In this document: piece by piece, positions 2,052 to 41,240 of the stretch
Numbering within the stretch: the first letter of the stretch is position 1
How the letters are laid out: each line of letters opens with the position of its first letter
Assembly: GCF_002878395.1 (NCBI RefSeq)
Contig: NC_061115.1
Coordinates: forward strand, 90,354,471 to 90,418,470
DNA from: Capsicum annuum
Taxonomy: Eukaryota; Streptophyta; Magnoliopsida; Solanales; Solanaceae
Direction: 5' to 3'
DNA length: 64,000 nucleotides
Notes under the pieces: model-generated
Database searches by the model: none
The model's input: the letters and a program-made list of their open reading frames with translations, nothing else
Told to the model about the DNA's origin: nothing
Position numbers and translations under genes: made by a program

Positions 2052-3449
2052 TGATAACGCTCAAACTACACCTCTCTAATGAGAATGTAAGTGATCGTTG
2101 ACAATATATAACCCAACTAGGTTGGGGTAGAATATCACAGAGAATATAGTGTAAACTTAAGTTGTTTGCGATTTAATCAACTGATAGTTAGATGTTTCCT
2201 AAAATTCGAGTTTTGGAGATTAGCCAATAATTGTTGGTCACTTTAGTTTTAGTGTTTGTAATCAAGAGTTTATGGTAAAACAGAATTGTGTTCACTATGG
2301 GTTGACAGATGCTAATAGTGATTCAAGATTCTCACAGTAGGTAGGACAATAAATTATCTGTATCTAAGTTATGCCTAAATGTCTCTCGACCTACTTAAGC
2401 ATTTAATTACCTAATCCTCTCAGACTTAGGGAATTTATATTTATGAACCAAACTTCACCTCAGGTTAATCAACCTCGTTACAACGTCAATTATTAAATGG
2501 AAGTTTAGTGTTTCCAAGTCCTTATCAATAATTCACTTCCTACTATATTTGATTTCTTATCTCAAGCAAATTAAAGCAGCTGTTATCTATCATTTGCAAC
2601 AAATAGACAATAATTAAAACCTCAGAATTATCTAGGAGTCCTATTACCTTTAGAATCTTAAACACTTAGTATCTTACCAAGACCTAACCCATAGATCCCA
2701 TAATTCGGGTTAAAGATATTTAGCCACTCATAATGTAATAATCGAAACAACTAGATGTATTCATAATTTGAAAGATGAACTTCCCATAAAATAAATAGTA
2801 ACTAGTGATTCTCAGATTAGATTACAATAGAAATTCCAAAATATTGATGAAAATCTCTTCAAAGTTAATTGTATTTCAAGCCAAGAAACTAGAGAGAAAA
2901 GTAACAATATACGTATGTCCCAAAACAGGTTCCCTTTTTCTTAGAAAACCTAAAAATATGCTTTAAATAGTTCATCCTAATTATGGAAACAAAAGCACAG
3001 AGTTCATAAATTTCTCGGATTAGATGACGATATTCGTGACACTTTATCAGCAGTCTGACGACTTACCACAAATGTCATCAGCTCCTTCTTTAATTTTAGC
3101 ACTTCCTGCTTAAGGTTGACAATGAAACCTGATCACTTGTCAACTCTTTGATGACTTATCAAGAAATATCATCACAACTTTTAGCTGAGGTCCATTCTCT
3201 GTCTAAGGCTGATGGTATCTCTGATAACTTATCACATGGGTTATAGTTGGTGCTTTCATAACCTGACAAATTGGGCCATGACAAGAATCTTTTTTTAGCT
3301 GGTTACTCCAGATGGTTTATAAAGGGATTTCCTCTATTGCTTCTTCTATGTCCAGATTTACTCAAAATAAAGTCAAGTTTTAATGGTTCGATTCTTATGA
3401 GAGGATTTTTTAGGAGTTGAAGACTCGAGTCATATCCGCTCTAGTTTTG
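2052..3449 (-). repeat. 5' LTR of element A
   Basis: The plus-strand edge TGATAACGCTCAA is the reverse complement of the TTGAGCGTTATCA end of solo LTR L (54112), so both are the 3' edge of related LTRs. A TATA-like CTATTTAAAG lies on the minus strand at 2961-2970. Palindromic TGACGAC/TGATA...TATCA units lie upstream of it (3023-3230). The far edge is uncertain: the next recognisable boundary is the gypsy LTR starting at 3450, so A's LTR may be cut there. Confidence 0.6.
3023..3230. repeat. Palindromic TGACG/TGATA-TATCA unit block in the LTR of A
   Basis: At least three short near-palindromic units occur: one from 3023 ending in 'gtcatca' near 3080, TGATGACTTATCA near 3149, and TGATAACTTATCA near 3221. 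On the minus strand they lie about 60-270 bases upstream of the TATA-like box. Similar blocks are present in elements E and F. Confidence 0.65.
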
Positions 3450-4280
3450 TGTAAGACCCCGTATAATTTCAAAAAATTTATTTTTCACCTTTCCATGTGT
3501 GTAATGTCAATTTTTGACTTAAACTATGTTAAACAATATTAAAAGGGTGTTTTGGAAAAGTTTTTTAATTTGTGAAAGGGGTTCAGGACTATTTTAGAAC
3601 TCTGAGGCAGTAAACCTCCATGATAATGGCGTGCCATGCCACTTAGCCTCTGCTATAAGGGCGTGGCGTAGAGGCAATGCTCCTCGATAGTGATGTGCCA
3701 TGTCTCTATGTATTTTTCACCAAGTTTTTATTTTTTCACTTGGGGTGAGGGGATTTTGGTCCTTTTAACCCTTGCACAACTTTTAAACATAAAATAAACT
3801 CATTTTCTTTAGTTTTGAAAGATCTAAGTCCATTTTTTCCTCATTAACTCCTAACCAAAGAAAACTCAATTGTTTTATAGAGAATTCATTATTCAAGATC
3901 CAAACTTCAAATTCCTTTCAACTTTTTGTATATTTCAGGCATATATCTTTTTCCTTAACTTGAATTTTACATTATGGCATATGTTTAATCATTATTTATG
4001 TGATTTTAATTCTTGGGTTTGAAATTAGGTTGAGGACTTTTGATAGTTATTACTTGAATGGTATTTCCCATGATTTAAATGTGTTGTTTAAACTTTAATT
4101 ATCGGGTTTTGGGACTGAATGGGTGCATTGTTATGAGGATTGGAATGGGGAATATGATTTTCCCCAAATTAATGGATTTTTTCTTAATAATGTATTTAAC
4201 CTCAATCCACCTTTATGAGTTTGGTTTTGAATATGAAATGTGCATGATTTAACTTACTTTTGGAAAATTACATTTTAGTA
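3450..4280 (+). repeat. Partial 5' LTR of gypsy element B (chromovirus)
   Basis: It starts TGTAAGACCCC and aligns base by base, with scattered differences, to the start of the LTR at 7943 (up to about 8777). Shared strings include 'ttaaaagggtgttttgg', 'ggggtgagggg' and 'tatggcatat'. After 4280 the similarity ends abruptly and gag-like coding begins, so roughly the last 2 kb of this LTR and the primer site are deleted. Confidence 0.8.
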
Positions 4281-4317
4281 TAATCATGTTGGTTCTACTG
4301 TTAGTTCATCTGAGGTT

Positions 4318-4960
4318 ACTTGGGTTGGTAAGTTTATGATGTTTAATCCCCCAATCTTTATAGTCTCTAAGGTTGAGAAGGATTCTCTTGGATTTATTGA
4401 CGAAATGGAGAATATTTTTAGGGTTATTCATGCAATTGATTTGGAGGGTGTGGAGTTTACTACCTATTAGTTGAAAGATATGGCTTACTAGCGGTATGCA
4501 TAGTGGGAAGCGATGAGGGGTGATAATGCCGAGTTGGTGGTGTAGGAATAGTTTTTAGGTGGTTTTCTTTGTCACTTCTTTCATCAGGAGTTGAGAGAGG
4601 CTAAGACTGAAGAGTTTGTAAGCTTGAAATAGGGTAAGACAAGTGTTAATAAGTATGCTTTGAAGTTCCAGTAGTTGTCTCTGTTGTGCTCTAGAGTTAG
4701 TGTTTAATATGAGATCTAGAATGAAGAAGTTTGCTTCTAGTTTGTCCCGTGATTTGATATTGGAGTCTAAGTCTGCTATGTTAATAATGATATGGATATC
4801 TCCAGGCTGGTAAGGTTTATATGCAGTAGGTAGAGAATGAGAAAAAGAAGTAGGTAGAGATAGGAGAAAGATAAAATGAGAAATCTAGATATTTAGAGCA
4901 AGGTGCTAGTTAACAGAACAGTGGGAAAAATGGTAGTCAGTGGTCCAAGAAGAAGAATTT
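4318..4960 (+). pseudogene. gag: Gag relic of element B
   Basis: The frame carries the expected chromovirus Gag order: a KFMMFNPP-like entry, a helical core with KVEKDSLGFIDEMENIF, then REAKTEEFVSLK and KYALKFQ. These align by eye with the better preserved Gag of element C (11341-11900). Many TAG stops have replaced Trp or Gln codons, consistent with deamination of methylated cytosines. No zinc knuckle is recognisable. A clear pseudogene. Confidence 0.7.
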
Positions 4961-29228: not shown

Positions 29229-29735
29229 GAAGTGGGTTCTTGTCATGAGAGAGAGAAAGGTAAGATTTAAAAGAGGAGAGCGAGGTAGTAAGAGAGCCAG
29301 TTAAAAGAATATAGGAAGTCAACTGTTTGAAAGGGAATGGAATAGAGGAGTAAATATGTAACGCCCCGTAAAATCCTCTTCCACTATGAGCCTTAGAGAA
29401 TATTTGGTAAAGTGAAAATCCGAGTCAAAATCTTTTGAAAATATCCTCCCAAGTATGAAATACTTTGAAATCGTCTGGAAATCTATTTGAGCATGAATTA
29501 AGATCATAGAGGTCCCCTAACTTATGGACGAGTTGAAAACTTTCCTATCATTCAAGTTTTAGTGACCGTTAAAATTTGGTTCAACTTCAATCGACCATAA
29601 CTCATTTTATATTAAGAACTGGGTGGTTTTATTATATATCAAATGAAATATATTTTAATTATCTTTCCAACAATACAAATTTTTCCTAAATCCGATATCG
29701 AAGCAAATAGTTATGCCCATTTTACTCCAGCATGT

Positions 29736-29935
29736 CATGCTGAAAAATAGTGACGATGTTTCTGATGGGCTAGCATGTTTCTGACTCCTTTTTTGATGAC
29801 GATGTCACATTCTGATGACATTTCTGATGACATCGTCAGTTCTAGGCAGAAAATCAAGAATTTGGACCCCTTTTGTGATGACCATTCGTGACGGCCTATC
29901 ACGAACCTGGCGACCTATCACGGATGGCGTCAAGT
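29736..29935. repeat. Palindromic TGACG unit block upstream of the TATA box of E
   Basis: Several units: TGACGATGTTTCTGATGGGC, TGATGACGATGTCACA, TGATGACATCGTCAG, and 'cgtgacggcctatcacg'/'cgacctatcacggatggcgtca'. The block ends about 70 bases before the TATA box. A matching block is in the 3' LTR at 35056-35231. Confidence 0.8.
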
Positions 29936-30003
29936 ATATTTTTCCAGTAATTCAAGGGAGTTTTTGCAAGGGTATTTTGGTCATTTCCCACACTTTTTGA
30001 GCC

Positions 30004-30013
30004 TCTATAAATA
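30004..30013 (+). promoter_or_regulatory. TATA box of the LTR of E
   Basis: CTATAAATAT, followed about 30 bases later by a pyrimidine-rich ACACCCTAATT start-like region. It sits directly downstream of the palindromic block. Confidence 0.65.
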
Positions 30014-31060
30014 TGAGGAACCCTCATTCACACCCTAATTTAATCATTTTCTTTTTCAACTCTCTCAAGAGAGTATAACTAGGGTTTCAATCAAGAACCC
30101 TAATCTTCCATAAATCTTCAAGGTTTCTTCAAGAATCAAGTTCCTCATAGTGTGGGCTTAAAGAATTTATTTATTTCAAGTGTGGATAAAGTTTCAAGCA
30201 CTAAAGTTCAACCAATTTCAAAGGTTAAGGTATGTAGATGTTGATTCTTGGGTCCGTTTCATCCAAGAAGCTCAAGAACCCTTTTTATAACTAAAAGATT
30301 TTTATGTTTATGAGTTTTTAATGATTTGTATAAGTTGAAATGGATGTTTAATGTTTTTTTGAGTTTTGATTTATGTTTGCCTACAAAATTTATGAGCCTT
30401 GATCCTAGTACGTGGAATTCATGTGATAGACCCTCTTGAAGTTGTTTTTCCATGTGATGTGTTCATGACTTTTGGGTGTAAAATGGTTGAATAAATGAAG
30501 AACATTCCCCATAGGTTTGATAAAGATCTTAGGTGAAGCATAAGTGCCGCTATAGTATGTTGAATAGGAAACTCCAAATTGTGAGATAGTCCATGCATGC
30601 CTAGTGTTTGATAAAATGCCTTAGTGAGTGAAATATGCCAAGATAGCATGAAATCCCAAAGTAGGTGTAAAATTGGTCGTGTCTAGTGGTTGTTGAAAGA
30701 CCCTAGGGATCAAAGGAACAAGTCGAGATATAATGGTTGTAAATTCCACGATTTTATGCTCTTTGATATATGCTAAGCTTTTAATACATGTCAAGTGGTT
30801 AGCAAGTAAATAGTGGCATGTTAGTATGAAGTTTTCCCCCAAATCAAGTGATATCCAAATACATGACAAGACCGATATAGGTATGAAGTACTTGATGTAA
30901 GATGTCATTGAATGGGGTATAATCTAATAGCACATCTTCCCGAGTCTAGTATATGATGATGAATGGAGGTCTATGTTTCCTAAATTCTTAATGCGATGTC
31001 CTAAGAATATTGAGAGAGAAAGTATGTTGTGATTCCCAACTACTTGAAGTGATTCTTTAA

Positions 31061-31180
31061 CGATTGTGATAATACATGAATACTTGTAATGATGAATGAA
31101 TGCTTGTAATGATGAATGAATGATGGTAGTGATGAATGAATGACCGTGATAATGCATGAATTATTTGTGATAAAGAATGA
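31061..31180 (+). repeat. 20-bp minisatellite, 6 units, in the LTR of E
   Basis: Six consecutive 20-base units of the type TACTTGTAATGATGAATGAA. Units two to four are nearly identical and the outer ones are diverged. The period is exactly 20 throughout. Confidence 0.9.
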
Positions 31181-33030
31181 TTATGTCTTACTTTTGTGTT
31201 ATCAAGTCCTGGGGGTATTTATACCCAAAAATAGAGTTGTTTTCTAGAGCCTGTGTCAGTTTCTCAATAATTCCAATTGATCCATGATTCTCAGAACTCA
31301 GTGAACTATAGAACTCTATTTTCTCAGACAAGTGCAAAGCTCAATAAAGCTCGGTAATATCAGTTATCTCTGTAATCTCTGTATTGCTAGTAACCTAGCC
31401 TCAGACCAGTAATTAGCTCAGTTCTAATAGTATTTAAGTGATTCAATCCTAATCTCAGAAGTGATTCGAGTAATCCATTCAAGATCTATATCGTCAGCCA
31501 GATATCATGATTTGATATCTTTTCCATCAGATTCGAAAACAAGTGATCTCAGCGCAACTCAATTAGACCTTTTGAGTAATATGATTAGTGTCAGATTCAG
31601 TTCAGCCAGTGTTCAGTTGAGAATTCAATTCTGAGTCTTTCAGTTGGGAGTAGAAACTAGCACCGAGTGAGCTCAAGGATGGAATCTCACCTACTAGTAG
31701 AGGGTGTGATTCATAGAAGAAATCCTTGTGCTCTAGAACTACATAGCCAGCGTAGGTTGAGACATCACACCTGTTAGTTGAGGGTGGATGAGAGACATCA
31801 TACCTACTAGATAAGGATAGATGAGGTGGCTTGACCTGCTAGATGAAGGCTCCACCATTTTGGTTTGTGGACCTACTAAATGAGGGTCACATACAGTTGT
31901 CTTTACCAGTGGCATGGTAATGACACCCTTCCAACTGGGGCACAGGTTAGACCCCACCTATGGTAGGTCGGGGCATGTCGGTTAAGTGACTACTTCCCAC
32001 AGTTTTAGTTTTAGATTCAGTCTCAATTTTAGAATCAGTCTTCAGAAATCAAGACTATCAAATACAGCATCTATCATTATGAGGAACTCAGATAGTTCCA
32101 TTAATTTATGTACCATCCCATTAGATAGACTTGGTCTCACATACAGTTATTTGATATCATATTTAGAGATATGCCGTTAGATAGGCTTGATCACAGTATC
32201 AAATTTCTATTAAGTTTTTTGGTTATCATATTCAGATATAATCATATTTCTTATCATTAATAAATCTTCCAAAATCATCTGTTAAAAAGGTTGATCTCTA
32301 ATCCTGTCAGTTCAAAGTAGTAAGTCTAAGAATTCAGTCATTGATGTAAGCACATCCAGATCCTCAGTTATCAGTATCAGATGAGTCAGTGATTCAGTAT
32401 CTCATTGTCAGTAGAGAGTTCAGTCTACAGTAAAGTGGTATCTAAGTTTCAGTATCTAGAGTTACGATAATTGTGTTCATGTTCTGTGCATTCATGTATG
32501 TATTCTCATGTTGCATTTTCATGATTATTCAGTTTAGATATTGTGCATACATGAACCCTTGCATTAGCCTACCCTGTGTACATACTCGGTACATTTTTGT
32601 ACTGACGCATTTTCGCTATGGTGTTTTATTTGACACAATTGGTTCAGAGGCATAGGATCCAATTTATCCTCAACAGTTTGGTCCTAGTCAACAGCAGTAG
32701 TAGTGAGTCCTCTTCTTTTGAGGACGAGTCTCAGTTTACTACTATATTTTTAGACTTTGTTTATTTTTTATTGACGGATTTAGTTGGGGAAATATCTCAT
32801 CAACTCCACAGTTTAGACAGTTAGAGGCTTTTCAGACGGATGTATTAGTATTCAGTTTTTAGTTTTGAGTATGTATAGATGTGTTGAACCTTATGGCAAG
32901 TTTCCATTTTTTCTTCCAGATATTATGCAGTGTATATGTACAGATATCAAAAAATGGGTTAGCTTTTGATCCTTTGGGTCCATAAGCACTGTGTGATGTC
33001 TCGGGATGAGATCTCAGGGCGTTACAAATT

Positions 33031-33042
33031 TGGCATCAGAGC
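33031..33042 (+). promoter_or_regulatory. Primer binding site, tRNA-Met (element E)
   Basis: TGGCATCAGAGC, one mismatch from TGGTATCAGAGC, four bases after the LTR end. Confidence 0.85.
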
Positions 33043-33248
33043 CTAAGGTTCAATATTGTCCTAGGAAGTCTGAAAAGCCGTATCTAGTAGAGTCTTGTGC
33101 ATGGGTGTGTAGCGCGTCATATTTATGTACAAGAGGCTATAGGATGTACTTAGGAGTATTTTCCCTTCTTTTAGTATTCAGATCGTGTGTGTGAGCATGA
33201 GCTCAAGTTGATTCTCTATCTAATCCACTTGTTTCTTCTAAACAGAGT

Positions 33249-34019
33249 ATGCCTCCTCGCAGAGATTTTGTCCTTGAGGTAGATGACTAGCCCTCATAGC
33301 CAGTAGATCCTGAGAATGAGGGTGTGTCACATGTAGAGTTCAGAGCTGCATTCACAACCTTAGACCAGGCAATAGCTACTCAGAACAATTTGCAGAACGT
33401 TATCTTATCTAGACTTTTAGCTGACACTCAGCAGAATAAGGGGAGAGAGCGTAAGATGGATCAGAGGACTAGAACCAATAACTCTACACCAAGATTAAGG
33501 AGTAGAAACCGCTCCCAATTCCATCTGAGATCCTCACCACCAATTTTTCTATCAGTCCAGGCACCGGTACCTAAACCTAAGAATGCTAGTCGAGAGAGAG
33601 CATCAAGCTCTAAGTCACTAGGTTATGGGAAGAGTGTTCTTACCTACCCGTGTTGCGAAAAGTATGGTAGAAAGCACAGGGGTGTATGTAGAGCCGACAG
33701 TTGGGGGTGTTTTGGATGTGGTAGGCTAGGACACAAGTTGCGAGAGTGTAGAATACTACCTCATAGGGGTAGAGATTCATGCCAGCTGAAAGCCATTTCA
33801 AGTACTACTAGTGGTGTTCATACCCATCCGCATCATAGAGAGTGTGGAAGGAGCCACCAAGGTGTCTGTAGAGCCAGTAGCGATTTGTGTTTTGGGTGCG
33901 GTGAATCAGGCCATAGAATGCTAGAATGTAGAGTGCTAACTCAAAGGGGTAGACTTCAGGTGCTTCAGACTCGCCTTGATCAAAAAGGATTCCCTAAAAT
34001 AGACCCGGGTAAGTTATGA
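33249..34019 (+). pseudogene. gag: Gag-only ORF of element E with duplicated zinc-knuckle module
   Basis: The ancestral start is MPPRR at 33249, the usual chromovirus Gag start. Two TAG codons at 33288 and 33297 break the frame, after which 231 codons (33324-34019) are open. They encode a short helical N-terminus (EFRAAFTTLDQAIATQNN), a basic linker (about 40-100), then two copies of a Cys module: YPCCEKYGRKHRGVC plus CFGCGRLGHKLREC (110-142), and HRECGRSHQGVC plus CFGCGESGHRMLEC (170-202). The repeat period is 60 residues. Both CCHC knuckles are intact. The Gag core seen in element C is absent, as are all pol domains. Confidence 0.85.
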
Positions 34020-34660
34020 GCCCTTCTTCTTTATGATATACATTGTTAGGTCCTTTGCTTCAATTTTGAGCTTATATGTTAGCATGAGTCACGTATAAAT
34101 TTCAGATCTTGATCGGTCAATCATGACCCAATTGTAGGTGCCCCACGCACCGCCCCAATATTTCAGCAAAGTATGTTTAGTGGGACATAGAGCCCCAAGG
34201 GGGAGATACCCCATAGTATAATGATGTTGCATGCCATTAGATTCATCCATATGCATGTTCAGATCTTCTTTATGAAATTAGCATCAGTTGTCACTGCATT
34301 GTTAATCATTATTGCATTGTCAGTCATGCTTTCAAAAGTCAGTTTAGCCGGACATTCATGCATTAGATATGCACATTCAGTAGAAAGAGTTTAGCTTGTT
34401 AGCATGTGTTCAGTCGTGTATTCATGAGATCATCCCAGTTGTGAGTCCATGCATCAGATATGCATGTGTATTATGAGAATTCAGCTATGAGTATCATCAG
34501 TAGAGTATTCCATGCATCATATCTGCATGCCCAGTGTGAGAACTCTATATGTCAGTTGTTCCAGTTATGTAGTCCTGATCTGAGATGTTTCCATTTCTTG
34601 AGTAAGTTCTATTGATCCGTATCTCAGTCTATCAAGTGACATTCGAGGATGAATGTTCTC
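34020..34660 (+). mobile_element. Noncoding 3' internal region of element E
   Basis: No ORF. It carries repeated short strings, for example 'catgcatcagatatgcatg' near 34450 and 'catgcatcatatctgcatg' near 34512, and 'catgcattagatatgcac' near 34355, an irregular repeat on 'gcattagatatgca'. It ends with ATTCGAGGATGAATGTTCTC, a string commonly preceding the polypurine tract of chromoviruses. Confidence 0.6.
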
Positions 34661-34673
34661 AAGATGGAGATAA
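34661..34673 (+). promoter_or_regulatory. Polypurine tract of element E
   Basis: AAGATGGAGATAA abuts the 3' LTR start TGTAATGCCCC at 34674. Confidence 0.85.
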
Positions 34674-35231
34674 TGTAATGCCCCACAAAGTCCTCTTCCA
34701 GTCTGAGCCTTAGAGCGTATTTGGTAAAGCAAAAATTTGAGTCAAAATGTTTCAAAAATATCCTCCCAAGTATGAAATACTTTGAAATCATGTGGGAATC
34801 TATTTGAGCATGAATTAAGATCATAGAGGTCCCTTAACTTATGGACGACTTGAAAACTTTCCTATCGTTCAAGTTTTAGTGACTGTCAAAATTTGGGTCA
34901 AATTCAATCAACCATAACTCATTGTATATTAAGAACTGGGTCTATATATCAAATGAAATATCTTTGAATTATCTTTCCAACGATATGAATTTTTCCTAAA
35001 TCTGATATCGGAGCAAAGCGTTATGCTTATTTTACTCCAGCATGTCAAGTTGGAAAACGGTGACGACGTTTCTGACAGGCTATCACGTTTCTGACGCCCT
35101 TTTTGATGACATCATCGCATTCTGACAACATTTCTGATGACATTGTCAGCCCTGGGTAGAAAATCAAGAATTTGGACCCCTTTTGTAACGACTTTATCAC
35201 CCACTTGACGCCACATCACAGACGTCATCAG
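34674..35231 (+). repeat. Truncated 3' LTR of element E
   Basis: It aligns with the first 510 or so bases of the 5' LTR, then through a diverged palindromic block to about 35231. After that the sequence becomes the LTR of element F. The remaining 3.1 kb of the LTR and the target duplication are missing. Confidence 0.8.
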
Positions 35232-35505
35232 AACTACTTCTCAACTCCAATTCCCTTATTAAGGCTGACGCTTCTTCTGATAAGCTATCATAAGGCTAAC
35301 AACTTATCAGGAATATCATCAGCCATGTTTTCTTCTCTTTTTCTCAAATTTTCTAATCTATTGCTCCATTGTCATTTATTTTCATTCCTTCATCCTTTTA
35401 CTGCAATATCATGAGCAAACACATCAAAACAACAAGAGTTGCTTCAGAATTCACAATTATTTTGAGCTAAAAAGCATTAAATATGTTAGCTTTTTCTCAA
35501 CATCA
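35232..35505 (-). repeat. Partial 3' LTR of element F (Athila/Tat-like)
   Basis: On the minus strand it begins TGATGTTGAGAAAAAG at 35505, right after a polypurine tract. It carries palindromic units (TGATAAGCTATCA near 35279, then 'aacttatcaggaatatcatca'). It is cut at its inner side by the junction with E. Confidence 0.65.
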
Positions 35506-35518
35506 ACACCCTCAACTT
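35506..35518 (-). promoter_or_regulatory. Polypurine tract of element F
   Basis: The minus strand reads AAGTTGAGGGTGT just before the LTR start at 35505. Confidence 0.7.
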
Positions 35519-36870
35519 AAAACAATTGCTTGTACTCAAGCAACAAACTAACTAAGAGAATACAAAGAACATTCAGCAGTCGACATCTATTTTAGCTCAA
35601 AACTCAATTACCGCCTCCAAGGTCAACCAATTTAAACTACTGTATATCTTATTGAAAAGCAACAATGTAACACAAGGGATTCCCTCCATGGCATCAACTA
35701 AGTACCAATAATCATGCTTATATCAATATGACACTACCCAAATAAATAAGTCACTTAGCAACATACTAATGTGCCCTCACAATAAAGAATTTCCCCTTTT
35801 TATCTCACAATAGAAATCAAAGTATTAACATGGGGATCATTACAAAAATACTCACTCTCAGAATGAAGTTCAAACCAATCTATGACAAACACCATATGCT
35901 TGCCCTTATCTTCATTACCAAAGTGTCTAGACAGGTAAGCTAAGATCATTATAGGTCATTCTTAGGCTTGTAATATAGGCTAAGGGTTGATATGATATTA
36001 TACGGCATTTAGAGTGACTAACCTCCTTGGCACTACTTTAACTCGTGGGGTTTACTTATTAACTTATTTTTCTCTTCCTTTTTTTTTATTGATCACACAT
36101 TTAGAATGGGTGGTTCTTTCTTCCTATTCAAACAAATTTCTTTTCTTGCTCTTTTTCACCAACACCCAACTTTCTATTTTTTTCACTTATTCTTTTTCTT
36201 TTACTCTACCCTTTTTCATACCCAATTTACATCATGCACCCCCATGATAGCCACCCTCAACTTAGGTTGTTTGCCTAAGTCAAAGTGCATAGTGTCCAAG
36301 AAGGACTAGGGCCAAAATAGGTTCATTATGATCTAAAAGGGAAGGTGATAGGTATTATAAAAAGAAATGGTTAATTTAGGCTCAAAACAAGGATCACGTG
36401 GCAACATGTACACAGGGAAGGTCATTTTAGGTTAAAAAGTGACTCAATTCAAAAACGGCCAATGATACTTTCCTAACCCCTATCTTTCAACTAAGGTAAG
36501 ACGAACTGGGCAAGTTCTGGATTCGGCAATACAAAGGAAACTCAGTAGAGATCACACACACACAAGGCACACAAGCATTTCACTAGCTACTACCTATCTG
36601 GTTCATGCAATTGTTCAGCAGTGGTTATTAAGCACTAGATTAATGCCCTAACCGGATCCACACCCAGATGCAATTCACACAGTCATGCAAGACAAACCAT
36701 TGGAGAGATATTCAAAATCACAAGATAAGTTAACTACCTACAGTACTTGCACTACTCCTATTTAGTTACAGAATATACTACAAAAACATGCTACCCTACA
36801 CCTTTAACTTAAAATCAAAATAAAATAAAACTAAGGGCTAGGGTATACCTGGAGTTAATCAAGTCTCAAA
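35519..36870 (-). mobile_element. 3' untranslated region of element F
   Basis: Noncoding. It matches element A (1-800) over long runs: 'gcttgtaat.taggct', 'gagtgactaac.ctccttgg', 'atgatagccaccctcaactta', 'ggactagggccaaaataggttcattatgat'. It is more distantly similar to D. The pyrimidine-rich stretch 36030-36240 produces hydrophobic spurious ORFs on the plus strand. Confidence 0.75.
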
Positions 36871-36879
36871 TCACGGGTC

Positions 36880-38976
36880 CTTGACCCTACAGCAGTGTCA
36901 TCCTCATCAAGAGCTTCTCTCTGCTCTGGTGCAGCTGCTCTGCTAGACGAGGCTTCTATAGTCCTCGCTCGCAGTGCTTTGTCCCATTTCTAATTGTCCT
37001 CTAGGGACACTTGCGTTGCCTTTTTTAGATTTTCTTTCTCTTGTTTTGTTAGCTCATCATCTTCCTATAGTGTCTTCTCTTCCTTATTCTTCTTTTTCTT
37101 TGCATTTTTCTCGGCTTTTCTCTCATTCTCATCATCCTCTTGTCTCTTTCTCTTACCTTTTTTAGCTTCTTTGTTTTTCTTTTTTTTCTTTTTCACTGGC
37201 TCCGCAGTGAGATCAAGGATTGGGGTTTCATCCTTAGATTCTTCAGTTTCCTGCCCTGCAGGCATCATAAATTGGTGTTGCTGTAACACTACCACATCAT
37301 CCTTTAAATTATCTAGGGCCACTCTGAATTCAGTAAGATCTTCTCTAGTTAATTCCTGTGCCCTTGCATCAAAACAGTTTTCTAGATCCGCCACCCGTGC
37401 AGGCAATGTAGCAAAAGGCTCAAAGCAGCCTTAATTCTCTTATCTACAGTAATGGTAAATTGGTTGGCGAAGGCATGTAGTTGTATCTCACACTATTTGT
37501 CCTGTTTGGCCACTTTTCTAATATCAATCAGCTAGGCTGTAATTCCTGCTGGTGCTGTAGGAGCTGAAGGGCCTCGCTTATTTTTAGGTACTGAAGCTAC
37601 CTGTACTAAAGAGTTTGCTGGTGCAGCCTCAGAGTCTTGCAGCTCCACTTGAGGTACTAAACTCGGGCCTACAACTGATGGGTTTACCTCAACCCTCACC
37701 CTTCTATCAAGTATCAGCCTTGTCTAATTTTCATCATATCGGATAGGGTTGTGGGTCTTAGTGGAATACAGCGTATCATCAATCCTACTATTTTTGGTAC
37801 CCCTGCCTCTGTGCATAACCTAGTGACCAACTAAGGGAATGGGTAAGCGGTGTCAGACCTTGTTACCCAAATCTTGATCTTCTTAACAATGATCTCTCCA
37901 AAGTCCAGCTTAAGGTTGGCCAAAAAACATCCAACCAATATAGCTCGATCATCCCCAAGAATGTTATCTTCATCAGTTGGCATTAAATGGGTGTGTACAA
38001 CACCCCACCAAAACTTTGTCTCTTGAGTCAAAGAAGCTTTATAAATTCGCTCACTAGGTCTGGTCAGCCATAATCGATCTCCTTCCACTATTAGTGTAGC
38101 TAACCAAGGATGTTGGTTGTCCTTACTCTTCAGTCGATGGTAGAATGCGGGATTTGTGACCTAAGGAATGAAGTTGGGTCCATGTAGAAATCTATTGATA
38201 GTCGTGTCAGAAATATCTACATTTACCCCATGAACTGGAACTCCGATCAGCAAAGGTTGGTCTGTTGTGGTCTCTCAATTCTTGCACATACTCTCTATTC
38301 TAGCCTGGTAGTTTGCATAAAACTCCTGGACTAATGTAGGACAAAACGGCTTTCCTCCCTTAGCAGTCCATCCTACCCCATAGTTTTTGAACTTCTTCTC
38401 AACTGTAAGATACCCTGTCAATCCTATGGATGACTCTCTTTTCTGGAAAAATTGGCCGTCTGGCAGATCTTTTTTTGTTCTGATCATACCTTTGAGGAAG
38501 ATGTCCTCTGCTTCAGGGATCTGCCATCTAGAATTCTCTCGAACCTCAGGATTTTTGCATTTTATCAAATTTCCCCGAGCTGGTGGTTCCTTCTCAACTT
38601 GATTCTCAGCCGAGGGAGTTTCTGAGGATGGTTCCTCAGAATCAGATTTGTCAGACTCAGCATGTCCTTTCTCCGGTTCTTCAGATTCAGCCTTCTCAGA
38701 CTCAAGTTGTTCGGACTCATTTTGGTTAGAACCCTCTTGCTTAGAAAATTCACTCTCAGCTGGAGTTATCGTCTCAGTATCATCACTATCCTCTACCTCA
38801 ATGGGTTTAGGTGGAGGAGGTGCCTTTGGACTTAATTTTCTGTTCCACCTGAGCAGTGGTTCTTCATCTTCATAATCAGAGTCTTCATCAATGAGCTTTC
38901 AAACCACCTTGGGCTTGGTAGCTTTCTTTGGAGTGTTAGGATTTTTGCGTTTTGGTTCTACTTTAATGTTCCTATG
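36880..38976 (-). pseudogene. ORF2 of element F: putative plant transposon-protein domain with acidic N-terminus and basic C-terminus
   Basis: On the minus strand the reading starts near 38976 and has a few stops. Order: a Lys/Pro-rich start; an acidic Glu/Ser segment (38890-38590, with ESEQLESEKAESEEPEK); then IKCKNPEVREN, WQIPEAEDIFLKGMIRTKK and LVQEFYANYQARI (open 38568-38275); a second block (38088-37831) with FWWGVVHTHLMPTDEDN, DRAILVGCFLANLKLDFGE and SDTAYPFP. These two blocks match the plant domain annotated as putative plant transposon protein (Transposase_32 type). The C-terminal part (37406-37065) is helical with many Lys (KKKKKKNKEAKKGKRKR), nuclear-localisation-like. Known in gypsy elements in the env position; function not established. 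Confidence 0.7.
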
Positions 38977-39083
38977 ATATCAAGAAAACAATATTCAGTA
39001 CTCAGTATTAAGAACACATGCATTCCATTTGAATTCACTAACTTAAGAAAAAAAAAAGTCAAGACAGTGCATTATCAACATAC

Positions 39084-39235
39084 TGTGACGACATGGATAA
39101 TAAGGTGTCACAGTTATAATAGCCTATCAGCTTTGTCATCAGCTCTAAATAGACTGACTTTTCTTTTCTCAGGCTTGTGACGACATTCCTGATAAGGCGT
39201 CACATTTCTGATAGCCTATCAATGATGCCGTCAGT
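39084..39235. repeat. Palindromic unit block 1 in the spacer of F
   Basis: It runs from TGACGACATGG through 'taatagcctatcag' and 'tttgtcatcag', then from TGTGACGACATTCC through the exact palindrome TGATAGCCTATCA (39209-39221) to GATGCCGTCAG. Confidence 0.85.
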
Positions 39236-39732
39236 CTAGATTTTTGGCCCAACTCAGTTTTCATTCTTAATTTAGGGACCAAATTTTCTTTAGAATCACA
39301 TGGAGTTTTCACTCATTTAACTAGAGTTTTAATTTTTACAATTTAAGCACCATTTCAACCCTCATTTTTATTTTCATAGTAATGGTACAATCAACTTAAC
39401 TTATTCTTGCCACTAAAGAGAAGAGTGAAGATGAGCTTAAGAACATACGTGATGATCAACTTTGACTTGCTTATACGCAAGAGAGAAGAAAAGATGAGAG
39501 GTTGATTTTGAAGGTCTTTGCAATCCCACAACTATCAGGAAGGTGGTTTCCTTGTTCACTTGAGAGTATTTTGAAATGAAGTAAATATCCTAACTAAGGC
39601 AGGAAATAACAAAAGAAGAAAATAAAACTTAAATAAGGAAACTAAGAAAACCGGGAACTTGAAAGGTTTTGTATCTGGGTCGGGTCGAATTTTAACTAAT
39701 TTGGGCCCAGATTTTCAAAAACAGGGTAATGG

Positions 39733-39888
39733 CTGACGACAACTTATGATAAGCCGTCATAAATATGATAGCTTATCACGGGGGTCGTCATCCTTAACAG
39801 AGAATGTCACAACCTTTGGTCTTTCTGACGACATTGGTGATAAGCCATCACGGTTGTGATAGCCTATCACAAATATCATCAAGACCAC
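39733..39888. repeat. Palindromic unit block 2 in the spacer of F
   Basis: It runs CTGACGACAAC, TGATAAGCCGTCA, TGATAGCTTATCA (39766-39778), GGGTCGTCA; then CTGACGACATTGG, GTGATAAGCCATCAC, the perfect palindrome GTGATAGCCTATCAC (39856-39870) and ATATCATCA. Confidence 0.9.
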
Positions 39889-39959
39889 TTGGCTTGCTTT
39901 CTTCAGTTTTTACCTTGACCTTTTTGTACCCTTTTCAGTTCCTTCCGATTACTACCTAA

Positions 39960-40397
39960 ATGAATAAAAACAAAATGCATGAAAATAAAATTTTGGGTTG
40001 CCTCCCAATAGCGCCTGATTTAATGTCGCGGCACAACTTGGTCATCTTGACTACTCAAACTTCGTCAAGATACCGTATCGATAGCTCATTACCATTTTCC
40101 TGGAATACATCCACAATCAAGAAGATATTCATCTCCTCCAACTGCTTCATAGGAGGATGTATTTTGAATCTGGCCTCCCTTTTTCCATACTTGAACTTTA
40201 ACTTATTGAGCTCCATATCAACCTATACTCTTCCCGTGGCTAATAGTGATCTACCCAAAATGATGAGTACCTCAAAATCAACATCACAATTCAATATCAC
40301 AAAATCTACAGGCAGAATAAAGTTATCCACTTTTACCGGCACATTATGTAATATACCAACTAGTTGATTCACCGATCTATCTACCATCACAAGACAC
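39960..40397 (-). pseudogene. pol: Retropepsin-like protease C-terminus of element F
   Basis: On the minus strand the reading has MCLVMVDRSVNQLVGI and, with a few stops, FILPVDFVIL, FEVLIILGRPF-like and GRVIVDMEL segments, the usual second half of the Athila/Tat protease. The SCRDI tail and WEATQ (GGTTGCCTCCCA) end the frame near 39995. No reverse transcriptase follows; the next feature is the ORF2 spacer. The N-terminal half with the active-site Asp is cut off at about 40397 by element J. Confidence 0.65.
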
Positions 40398-40403
40398 ATC
40401 GAT

Positions 40404-41240
40404 GTGGCTCCATCTATTTTTTATGGTGAAAATTATCAATTATGGACTGTGAGAATGAAAACTTACTTAGAGGCTCTTGATCTATGGGAAACTGTGGAAG
40501 AGGATTATGAAATTAATTTGCTACCAAATAATCCCACTATAGCCCAAATCAAAAGTCACAAGGAAAATAAAATTAAGAAGTCCAAGGCGAAGAAAACTCT
40601 ATTTTCTTCTATTTCAATAACTATTTTTACAAGAATTATGTCTCTCATATCACCAAAAGAAATTTAGGATTATCTAAAAAAGAATATATTGGAAATGAAA
40701 GAATTCGATAAATGCAAGTACTGAATTTGATAAGAGAGTTCGAGTTGAACAGAATGAAAGACTCTGAGACAGTCAAAGGGTACTCAGACATATTACTTGG
40801 CATTGTCAACAAGGTAAGATTACTAGGCACTGAATATAAATATTGAAGAATTGTTGAAAAAATTCTTGTTAAAGTGCCTGAATGATATGAATCATGTATT
40901 TACCTTGAAAAATATACAAGATCTGTCCAAGATTACCTTAGCAAAATTGTTAAATTCTTCTCAGGCACTGGAACAAAGAAAACTTATGAGGCAAGATGGT
41001 ATAGTTTAAGGAGCCTTAGTAGCCAACCACAAAACTCAAAAAAGAGGTAAAAATTTAAACTATTACCCACCATGATAGAACTGTGAAAAAATGGGTCCTC
41101 CACTATATAGATGTTGGAAAAGGCCAGACACGAATTGGAACAAGTGCAATCAACTTTACCATGAAGCAGTTATTTGAGAAAGAAAATTTGAAACCATGAA
41201 GCAGATGAACGTATGGTTAATGAAGAAGAAGACCATCTTT
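40404..41240 (+). pseudogene. gag: Gag of copia element J
   Basis: The open start (40404-40667) has FYGENYQLWTVRMKTYLEALDLWE, the N-terminal signature of Ty1/copia UBN2-type Gag. The reading continues with stops through KVRLLGTE and LNSSQALEQRK-like segments to a degraded knuckle near 41100-41170 (RCWKRPDTNWNKCNQLYHEAVI). Confidence 0.75.

Follow-up and report, generated by a model that had tools for sequence, protein, structure and literature searches.

What is the run of short near-palindromes, built on TGACG and TGATA, that recurs in several retrotransposons of one stretch of the pepper genome, and what might it do there? The stretch, referred to here as the window, comprises 64 kb of a single genome, that of Capsicum annuum (contig NC_061115.1, positions 90,354,471 to 90,418,470), and holds several pairs of long terminal repeats (LTRs) together with nested retroelement pieces, among them three elements designated A, E and F. 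A preliminary description, made from the letters alone, had placed the block in six stretches of these elements; all six hold it, and the matches in the window lie far above those in shuffled sequence. Our analysis resolves the block into tandem copies of one regular 56-base unit, and suggests that it is probably an enhancer in the unique 3' (U3) part of the LTRs of Tekay/Del-like and Athila-like elements, where a dimeric host DNA-binding factor would be expected to bind and activate.

With + denoting the half-site TGAYR and - its complement YRTCA (Y, pyrimidine; R, purine; N, any base), the unit is two-fold symmetric and presents six half-sites in the order + N7 + N3 - N6 + N3 - N7 -. Scored over 56 bases (30 scored letters), the window yields five full-unit matches with at most 3 of 30 mismatches, starting at 3025, 35266, 39086, 39178 and 39826, compared with 0 in 100 dinucleotide shuffles. 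Scored over the 32-base core (20 scored letters), it yields seven matches at no more than 1 of 20 mismatches (0 in 30 shuffles) and 10 at no more than 3 of 20 (shuffle mean 0.4, maximum 3), so the similarity far exceeds that of shuffled sequence of equal dinucleotide content. The weakest copies are those of E (unit 29889 with 1 mismatch, unit 35073 with 3), and the remainder of the E stretch carries half-sites in less regular order. In the window, units recur in tandem about every 92 bases (core starts 39098/39190, 39747/39838 and 3037/3130); across all loci analyzed, with one LTR counted per element, 41 of the 51 tandem distances below 110 bases were 91-94 and 5 were 82-83, and arrays held one to five units in the loci seen. 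The near-palindromes first described are therefore real, but they form tandem copies of one unit, more ordered than initially reported. The features concerned are as follows.

3025-3080, minus strand: unit 1 of the A array, in an Athila-like LTR; 1 mismatch of 30
3118-3173, minus strand: second unit of the A array, 93 bases from the first; core 3130, 1 mismatch of 20
3210-3265, minus strand: unit 3 of the A array, degenerate; core 3222, 4 mismatches of 20
29356-29882, plus strand: part of the E 5' LTR copied in the 3' LTR (copy 34673-35192, 86%)
29746-29935, plus strand: U3 array of the E 5' LTR; its best unit has core 29889, 1 mismatch of 20
30006-30013, plus strand: TATA box of E, TATAAATA, 71 bases downstream of the array
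35061-35192, plus strand: U3 array of the E 3' LTR, running up to the E/F junction; unit core 35073, 3 mismatches of 20
35182-35231, no strand assigned: fused E/F unit, with the junction 35192/35194 inside it
35266-35321, minus strand: unit of F, in its truncated Athila-like LTR; 1 mismatch of 30
37834-38160, minus strand: piece of the F Transposase_32 (PF20167) open reading frame (ORF), found with Pfam; downstream of the spacer arrays on the minus strand
39086-39141, plus strand: unit in the F post-pol spacer; 2 mismatches of 30
39178-39233, plus strand: unit in the F post-pol spacer; 0 mismatches; 92 bases after the unit at 39086
39735-39790, plus strand: unit in the F post-pol spacer; core 39747, 0 mismatches of 20; left flank longer by one base
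39791-39825, plus strand: linker between two F spacer units, starting TCCTTAACAGAGAA
39826-39881, plus strand: unit in the F post-pol spacer; 0 mismatches

The same geometry pervades the genome. In the 3.21-Gb assembly, the core, with its central gap left free between 2 and 9 bases, is present at 40,191 places, compared with 5 for the reversed pattern, and among the matches listed the gap was 6 in 49 of 50 places, the exception being AT-rich with a gap of 9. The exact word TGATAGCCTATCA occurs 1,979 + 2,020 times in the genome against 10 + 13, and TGAYR-N{3,11}-dyad 70,740 + 60,581 times against 1,012 + 954. The outer-site gap, in 100 rows among the matches listed, was 7 in 50, 8 in 17, 4 in 17 and another value in 16; the gap-4 and other-gap rows reflect in part overlapping reads within arrays and in part chance. 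In a random sample of 20 stretches of 10 kb (200 kb), an array was present in one stretch (locus L012, five units, next to sequence matching the E LTR), while the stretch L026 gave one single match, at chance level.

To which elements does the array belong? The 49 gap-6 core places, all fetched, form 31 clusters (L001, L004-L006, L029-L040, L043, L044, L047, L048 and L049-L059), all from one region at the start of contig C1. Every one of them lies in one of two Ty3 groups, 16 in a chromovirus-like group that we take to be Tekay/Del and 15 in a second that we take to be Athila; assignments were made by LTR-body matches with the array left out or by alignment, and the lineage names draw on Pfam. 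Twenty-nine of the 31 were judged to be LTRs, whereas L048 and L051, both Athila-like, are post-pol spacers. In these sampled loci the blocks are thus tied to retroelements, as first proposed, rather than being equally frequent outside them. LTR pairs were found in five of six fetched match pairs (L029/30, L031/32, L035/36, L037/38 and L039/40), which had been chosen first because their spacing looked like that of LTR pairs, and also in L005/L006; neither L033/34 nor L007/L008 formed one. The idea that L033 is an Athila element carrying a Tekay array was rejected, since L033 is a Tekay-like LTR adjoining an Athila-like element. Among Tekay-like loci, which include L045 and L046 from another listing, Pfam found RVT_1 and RNase H in L041 and SH3_Tf2-1 in L030 (5e-26), with Chromo in L036 at 19.4 bits, below the cut-off of 25.1. 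Athila-like loci were recognized by LTR kinship to A or F and by a Transposase_32 ORF after pol (PF20167: F, 1.8e-19; L008, 20.2 bits, below the cut-off of 45). A and F are themselves relatives (A 1-826 and F 35929-36749 are 73% identical), so that, of the three elements initially regarded as unrelated, E alone is of another lineage; the A LTR body also shows about 83% identity with L034. The minus strand is the reading strand of F, as its Transposase_32 ORF shows, and presumably that of A as well, given the kinship of A to L005/L007 and sequence at about 2029-2046 complementary to the Athila primer-binding site. Separately, a Tekay-like element appears to enclose a solo LTR of Athila-like type at L001:1259-2695, the flanks matching L012 at 3861-4312 and 4298-4511 with a 15-base overlap.

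Where does the array stand relative to the promoter? In E, TATAAATA at 30006 is preceded by the array at a distance of 71-260 bases, in good agreement with the 60-270 bases estimated initially. Over 25 arrays, a count that includes both LTRs of several elements, a TATA box follows within 140 bases downstream in 19, and at 50-100 bases in 16 of these 19. Several Tekay-like LTRs (L029-L040) share a stretch like GGGTATTTTGGTCTTTT between the array and the TATA box, which is possibly another conserved promoter part.

The half-sites themselves appear constrained. Between different Athila-like elements (13 unit pairs, 3 of them using one common unit), the TGA/TCA letters were identical at 215/234 positions (92%) and the spacers at 224/338 (66%; P = 1e-13); between different Tekay-like elements (10 unit pairs), the values were 168/180 (93%) and 219/260 (84%; P = 0.004). 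Between the two LTRs of one element (12 unit pairs, 9 of them Tekay-like), TGA/TCA and spacers were similarly conserved (206/216, 95%, and 293/312, 94%; P = 0.56), while only 112/144 of the Y/R letters were identical, compared with the same 293/312 spacer letters. Retention of TGA/TCA between elements but not within LTR pairs, along with loose Y/R letters, fits selection before insertion followed by methylation-driven decay. Decay of CpG as the sole cause of the Y/R variety was rejected: Y/R letters do change fast within LTR pairs, yet TGATA appears too common for it. A neutral tandem repeat hitch-hiking in LTRs, with its regular spacing a relic of duplication, would account for the varying number of units, between one and five per locus among those seen, and for neighboring units that are often close on the tree; we nevertheless regard it as improbable, as TGA/TCA is retained while spacers diverge between elements, and 49 of the 50 places listed keep exactly the 19-base spacing despite about 35% spacer identity. 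One Athila-like LTR (L004:1763-2253) contains a direct repeat of a 242-base piece (84%) holding array units, which points to array growth by larger duplications as well.

Several points weigh against an enhancer under selection. A TATA box is also found upstream in 12 of the 25 arrays, in AT-rich DNA, and that count takes in both LTRs of several elements. In the constraint comparisons, the units were located by the pattern itself, which favors TGA/TCA in all three sets; the P values assume independent letters, and the shared Athila unit and the Tekay-like majority among within-LTR pairs bear on the same comparisons. The half-site spacing spectrum of the random 200 kb showed little signal, and in F and L008 the spacer arrays are oriented opposite to the genes.

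Palindromes can also work as hairpins or cruciforms, in RNA or in single-stranded DNA, and there are indications of folding in the data. Four of the five window units fold as DNA better than their shuffles (z -2.1 to -2.8; the fifth, -0.06), spacer letters at mirror positions are complementary in 38% of cases compared with 18-28% at other offsets, and the nested pair formed by the left arm of dyad 1 and the right arm of dyad 2 leans toward pairing (111 versus 96.2 expected, P = 0.017; z 1.88). The arms within a dyad nonetheless vary independently: across 50 distinct dyads, Watson-Crick pairing of arm Y/R letters stood at 50 against 49.5 in shuffles, and among 95 units from 31 loci there was no excess of covariation in either dyad (84 versus 90.4 and 82 versus 85.1) or in the outer pair. 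The other two nested arm pairs provide no support for a fold (z -2.26 and -0.31), and the strongest association joins the left arms of the two dyads (z 4.39), as expected of direct copies. Because the arms vary largely independently, protein binding sites fit the data and a hairpin is disfavored; with dyads that lack covariation and a nested fold that lacks consistent support, we rejected such structures, which we consider hardly credible.

What kind of protein might bind? The six half-sites of each 56-base unit, set at fixed distances from one another, would be bound by a sequence-specific protein that acts as a dimer or tetramer and is most likely encoded by the host; one to five such units in tandem, for the most part 50-100 bases ahead of the TATA box, would raise transcription of the element. 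The composition of the sites is mixed. In 95 units, the outer half-sites read TGACG in 92 of 139, and the inner ones TGATA in 162 and TGACG in 106 of 369; inner sites often continue as TGATAAG, which contains the GATAAG core of GATA/I-box sites noted earlier, yet TGACG, TGATG and TGACA occupy identical places. In as-1 elements, the start-to-start distance between TGACG sites is 12, and two TGACG-type sites 12 bases apart are also what the outer pair of the array, TGACG-N7-TGAYR, provides, a likeness to the as-1/ocs elements bound by TGA bZIP proteins that extends to the TGACG half-sites, which the block provides chiefly at its outer positions. Unlike as-1/ocs, the array uses TGAYR half-sites with TGATA common inside, its inner dyads are TGAYR-N3-YRTCA rather than TGACGTCA, and it has six sites per unit with units in tandem. 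Published work on TGA factors describes the TGACG pentamer as sufficient, TGACGTCA as the representative motif, and spacing as important for tandem TGACG (PMC9360754). TGA bZIP proteins are one candidate, fitting TGACG and the 12-base outer distance but less well the N3 dyad and the common TGATA. Another candidate is the TALE homeodomain group, whose members recognize TGAC/TGAT cores.

The binder might instead be encoded by the element, or be a silencing or anti-silencing factor, rather than a host activator. VANC proteins of VANDAL transposons, for example, bind clustered motifs, and the array resembles these in that short motifs are gathered in clusters within non-coding regions of mobile elements, although motif, element class and position differ and no VANC-like protein was identified for it. 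The presence of arrays in post-pol spacers near a Transposase_32-type ORF (F, L008, L048 and L051) and the restriction to two lineages in the 31-cluster census speak for a self-encoded factor; the occurrence of the array in Tekay-like elements as well, and the finding by Pfam in three F pieces of only Transposase_32, whose function is unknown, and of no DNA-binding domain, speak against it. We therefore consider this alternative distinctly unlikely and retain a host factor as the probable binder. A further proposal concerns the Y/R letters. A methylated CG step and a TA step each carry methyl groups on both strands, and at the first inner half-site CG + TA (TGACG 5,439 + TGATA 22,261, gap fixed at 6) exceed TG + CA, about 12,491 by subtraction from the roughly 40,191 cores with gap 2-9, with an odds ratio of at least 3.1. 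A factor that treats the two steps as equals could bind heavily methylated LTRs, and a module that moved repeatedly between the two lineages could have aided the expansion of both; we give this little credence, and family structure and the differing make-up of outer and inner sites could also explain the excess.

How did two lineages come to possess one module? The preliminary description envisaged a U3 enhancer cassette that was either exchanged between families or evolved repeatedly; its enhancer-like character, its place in U3 and its occurrence in different lineages are supported, and exchange is the favored route, but A and F are not unrelated. The array-free LTR bodies of Tekay-like and Athila-like elements gave no alignment beyond one long match and one 31-base stretch (E = 0.001), and the long match, between L012 and L001, was rejected as a case of exchange because an Athila-like LTR is apparently nested there in a Tekay-like element. 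The linker that follows the unit in the direction of transcription starts approximately GCCTTAAnCAGARA in both groups, with 59% identity over 14 bases compared with 24% in antisense and 20-35% in shifted registers (0/5000 column permutations as high), in a comparison of 13 Tekay-like with 11 Athila linkers, all selected manually. The F and L008 spacer linkers give 49% in the plus-strand reading versus 26% reversed. Single close pairs cross the lineages, such as L047 (Athila-like), which is closest to L039 (Tekay-like) at 84% over 56 bases and 73% over 136, and the starred branches of a tree of 59 units force at least 4 lineage changes.

Other results argue against frequent exchange. Spacer letters inside units are 35% identical within and 34% between lineages, so the case for exchange rests mainly on the linker, from a hand-picked set, and a few pairs. 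The nearest neighbor belonged to the unit's own lineage for 52 of 67 units (44/5000 label permutations as high), and the 59-unit tree, built from 56 columns and carrying a long-branch warning, showed 10 lineage changes compared with 19.4 in row shuffles (0/500 as low) and 17.0 in element-wise permutations (3/300 as low as 10). Units thus cluster by lineage, indicating that exchange was not frequent. Both this grouping and spacer letters that are no closer between lineages than within would also be expected had the array been assembled convergently in each lineage under one host factor, an explanation compatible with an enhancer. Convergence accounts less readily for a non-palindromic linker motif common to both groups in the same direction relative to transcription, and for the close cross-lineage pairs, and we consider it unlikely, albeit worth keeping in view. 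Because the six-site order, the tandem period, and the linker motif with its direction are equal in both groups, exchange is likelier than independent origin: the array appears to have been mostly inherited within each lineage, with a few exchanges that may have occurred through recombination or template switching, and convergence is less likely.

The junction of E and F offers an instance of two arrays meeting. The E LTR copy stops at 35192 and similarity to the Athila-like LTR begins at 35194, so that the array of the E 3' LTR and that of the F LTR are joined head-to-head inside one unit, both LTRs being truncated. Among 40 scored matches out of 1,662 candidates, the window alone spans the junction; the idea of an amplified hybrid family was accordingly rejected, and the chimera is taken as local. 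As one event, it indicates that oppositely directed arrays of two lineages can be joined at the block. Farther into F, and likewise in L008, the order is protease-like sequence, spacer arrays within about 200 bases of it, and then the Transposase_32-type ORF, which leaves no reverse transcriptase or integrase between the protease-like part and the arrays; F (36900-40430) and L008:1-2821 possibly represent a non-autonomous Athila-like subfamily. Pfam named no family for the L008 protease-like piece, the protease reading being our own reading of the frame. L048 has a post-pol stretch, then arrays, then an ORF matching that of F (27% over 165 residues, E = 1e-11). Between the arrays and this ORF (L048:400-1600), TATTTAAA, a leader-like stretch and then AAGGTATG follow one another in an LTR-like manner, as judged by eye, and they may serve the ORF as an internal promoter.

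Tandem regulatory repeats in U3 have precedents, including the BII boxes of Tnt1, the 75-base repeats of retroviruses and the 21-base repeats of human T-cell leukemia virus type 1 (HTLV-1), and the array resembles them in this respect. It differs in its fixed internal geometry and in being present tens of thousands of times. In Solanaceae, U3 of the Tnt1 superfamily is reported to have evolved in a modular way (PMC1838419); there, modules vary within one superfamily, whereas here one module is common to two Ty3 lineages. A literature search by title and abstract, with subscription papers mostly outside its reach, found no description of this module; the word 'palindrom' was not found in the text of PMC7076952, PMC12298681 and PMC3601003, and twelve 13- to 15-mers matched only four papers (five entries) in literature text, none of them on plants. 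In Capsicum, the proliferation of Tekay elements is described as a probable major contributor to the difference in genome size (PMC12298681). If our reading is true, a module of fixed geometry at 40,000 places, in LTRs that otherwise do not align, would mean that a U3 enhancer can pass as a unit from one family to another, and the strictness of its spacing would help to discriminate sharply among candidates for the factor that both lineages need.

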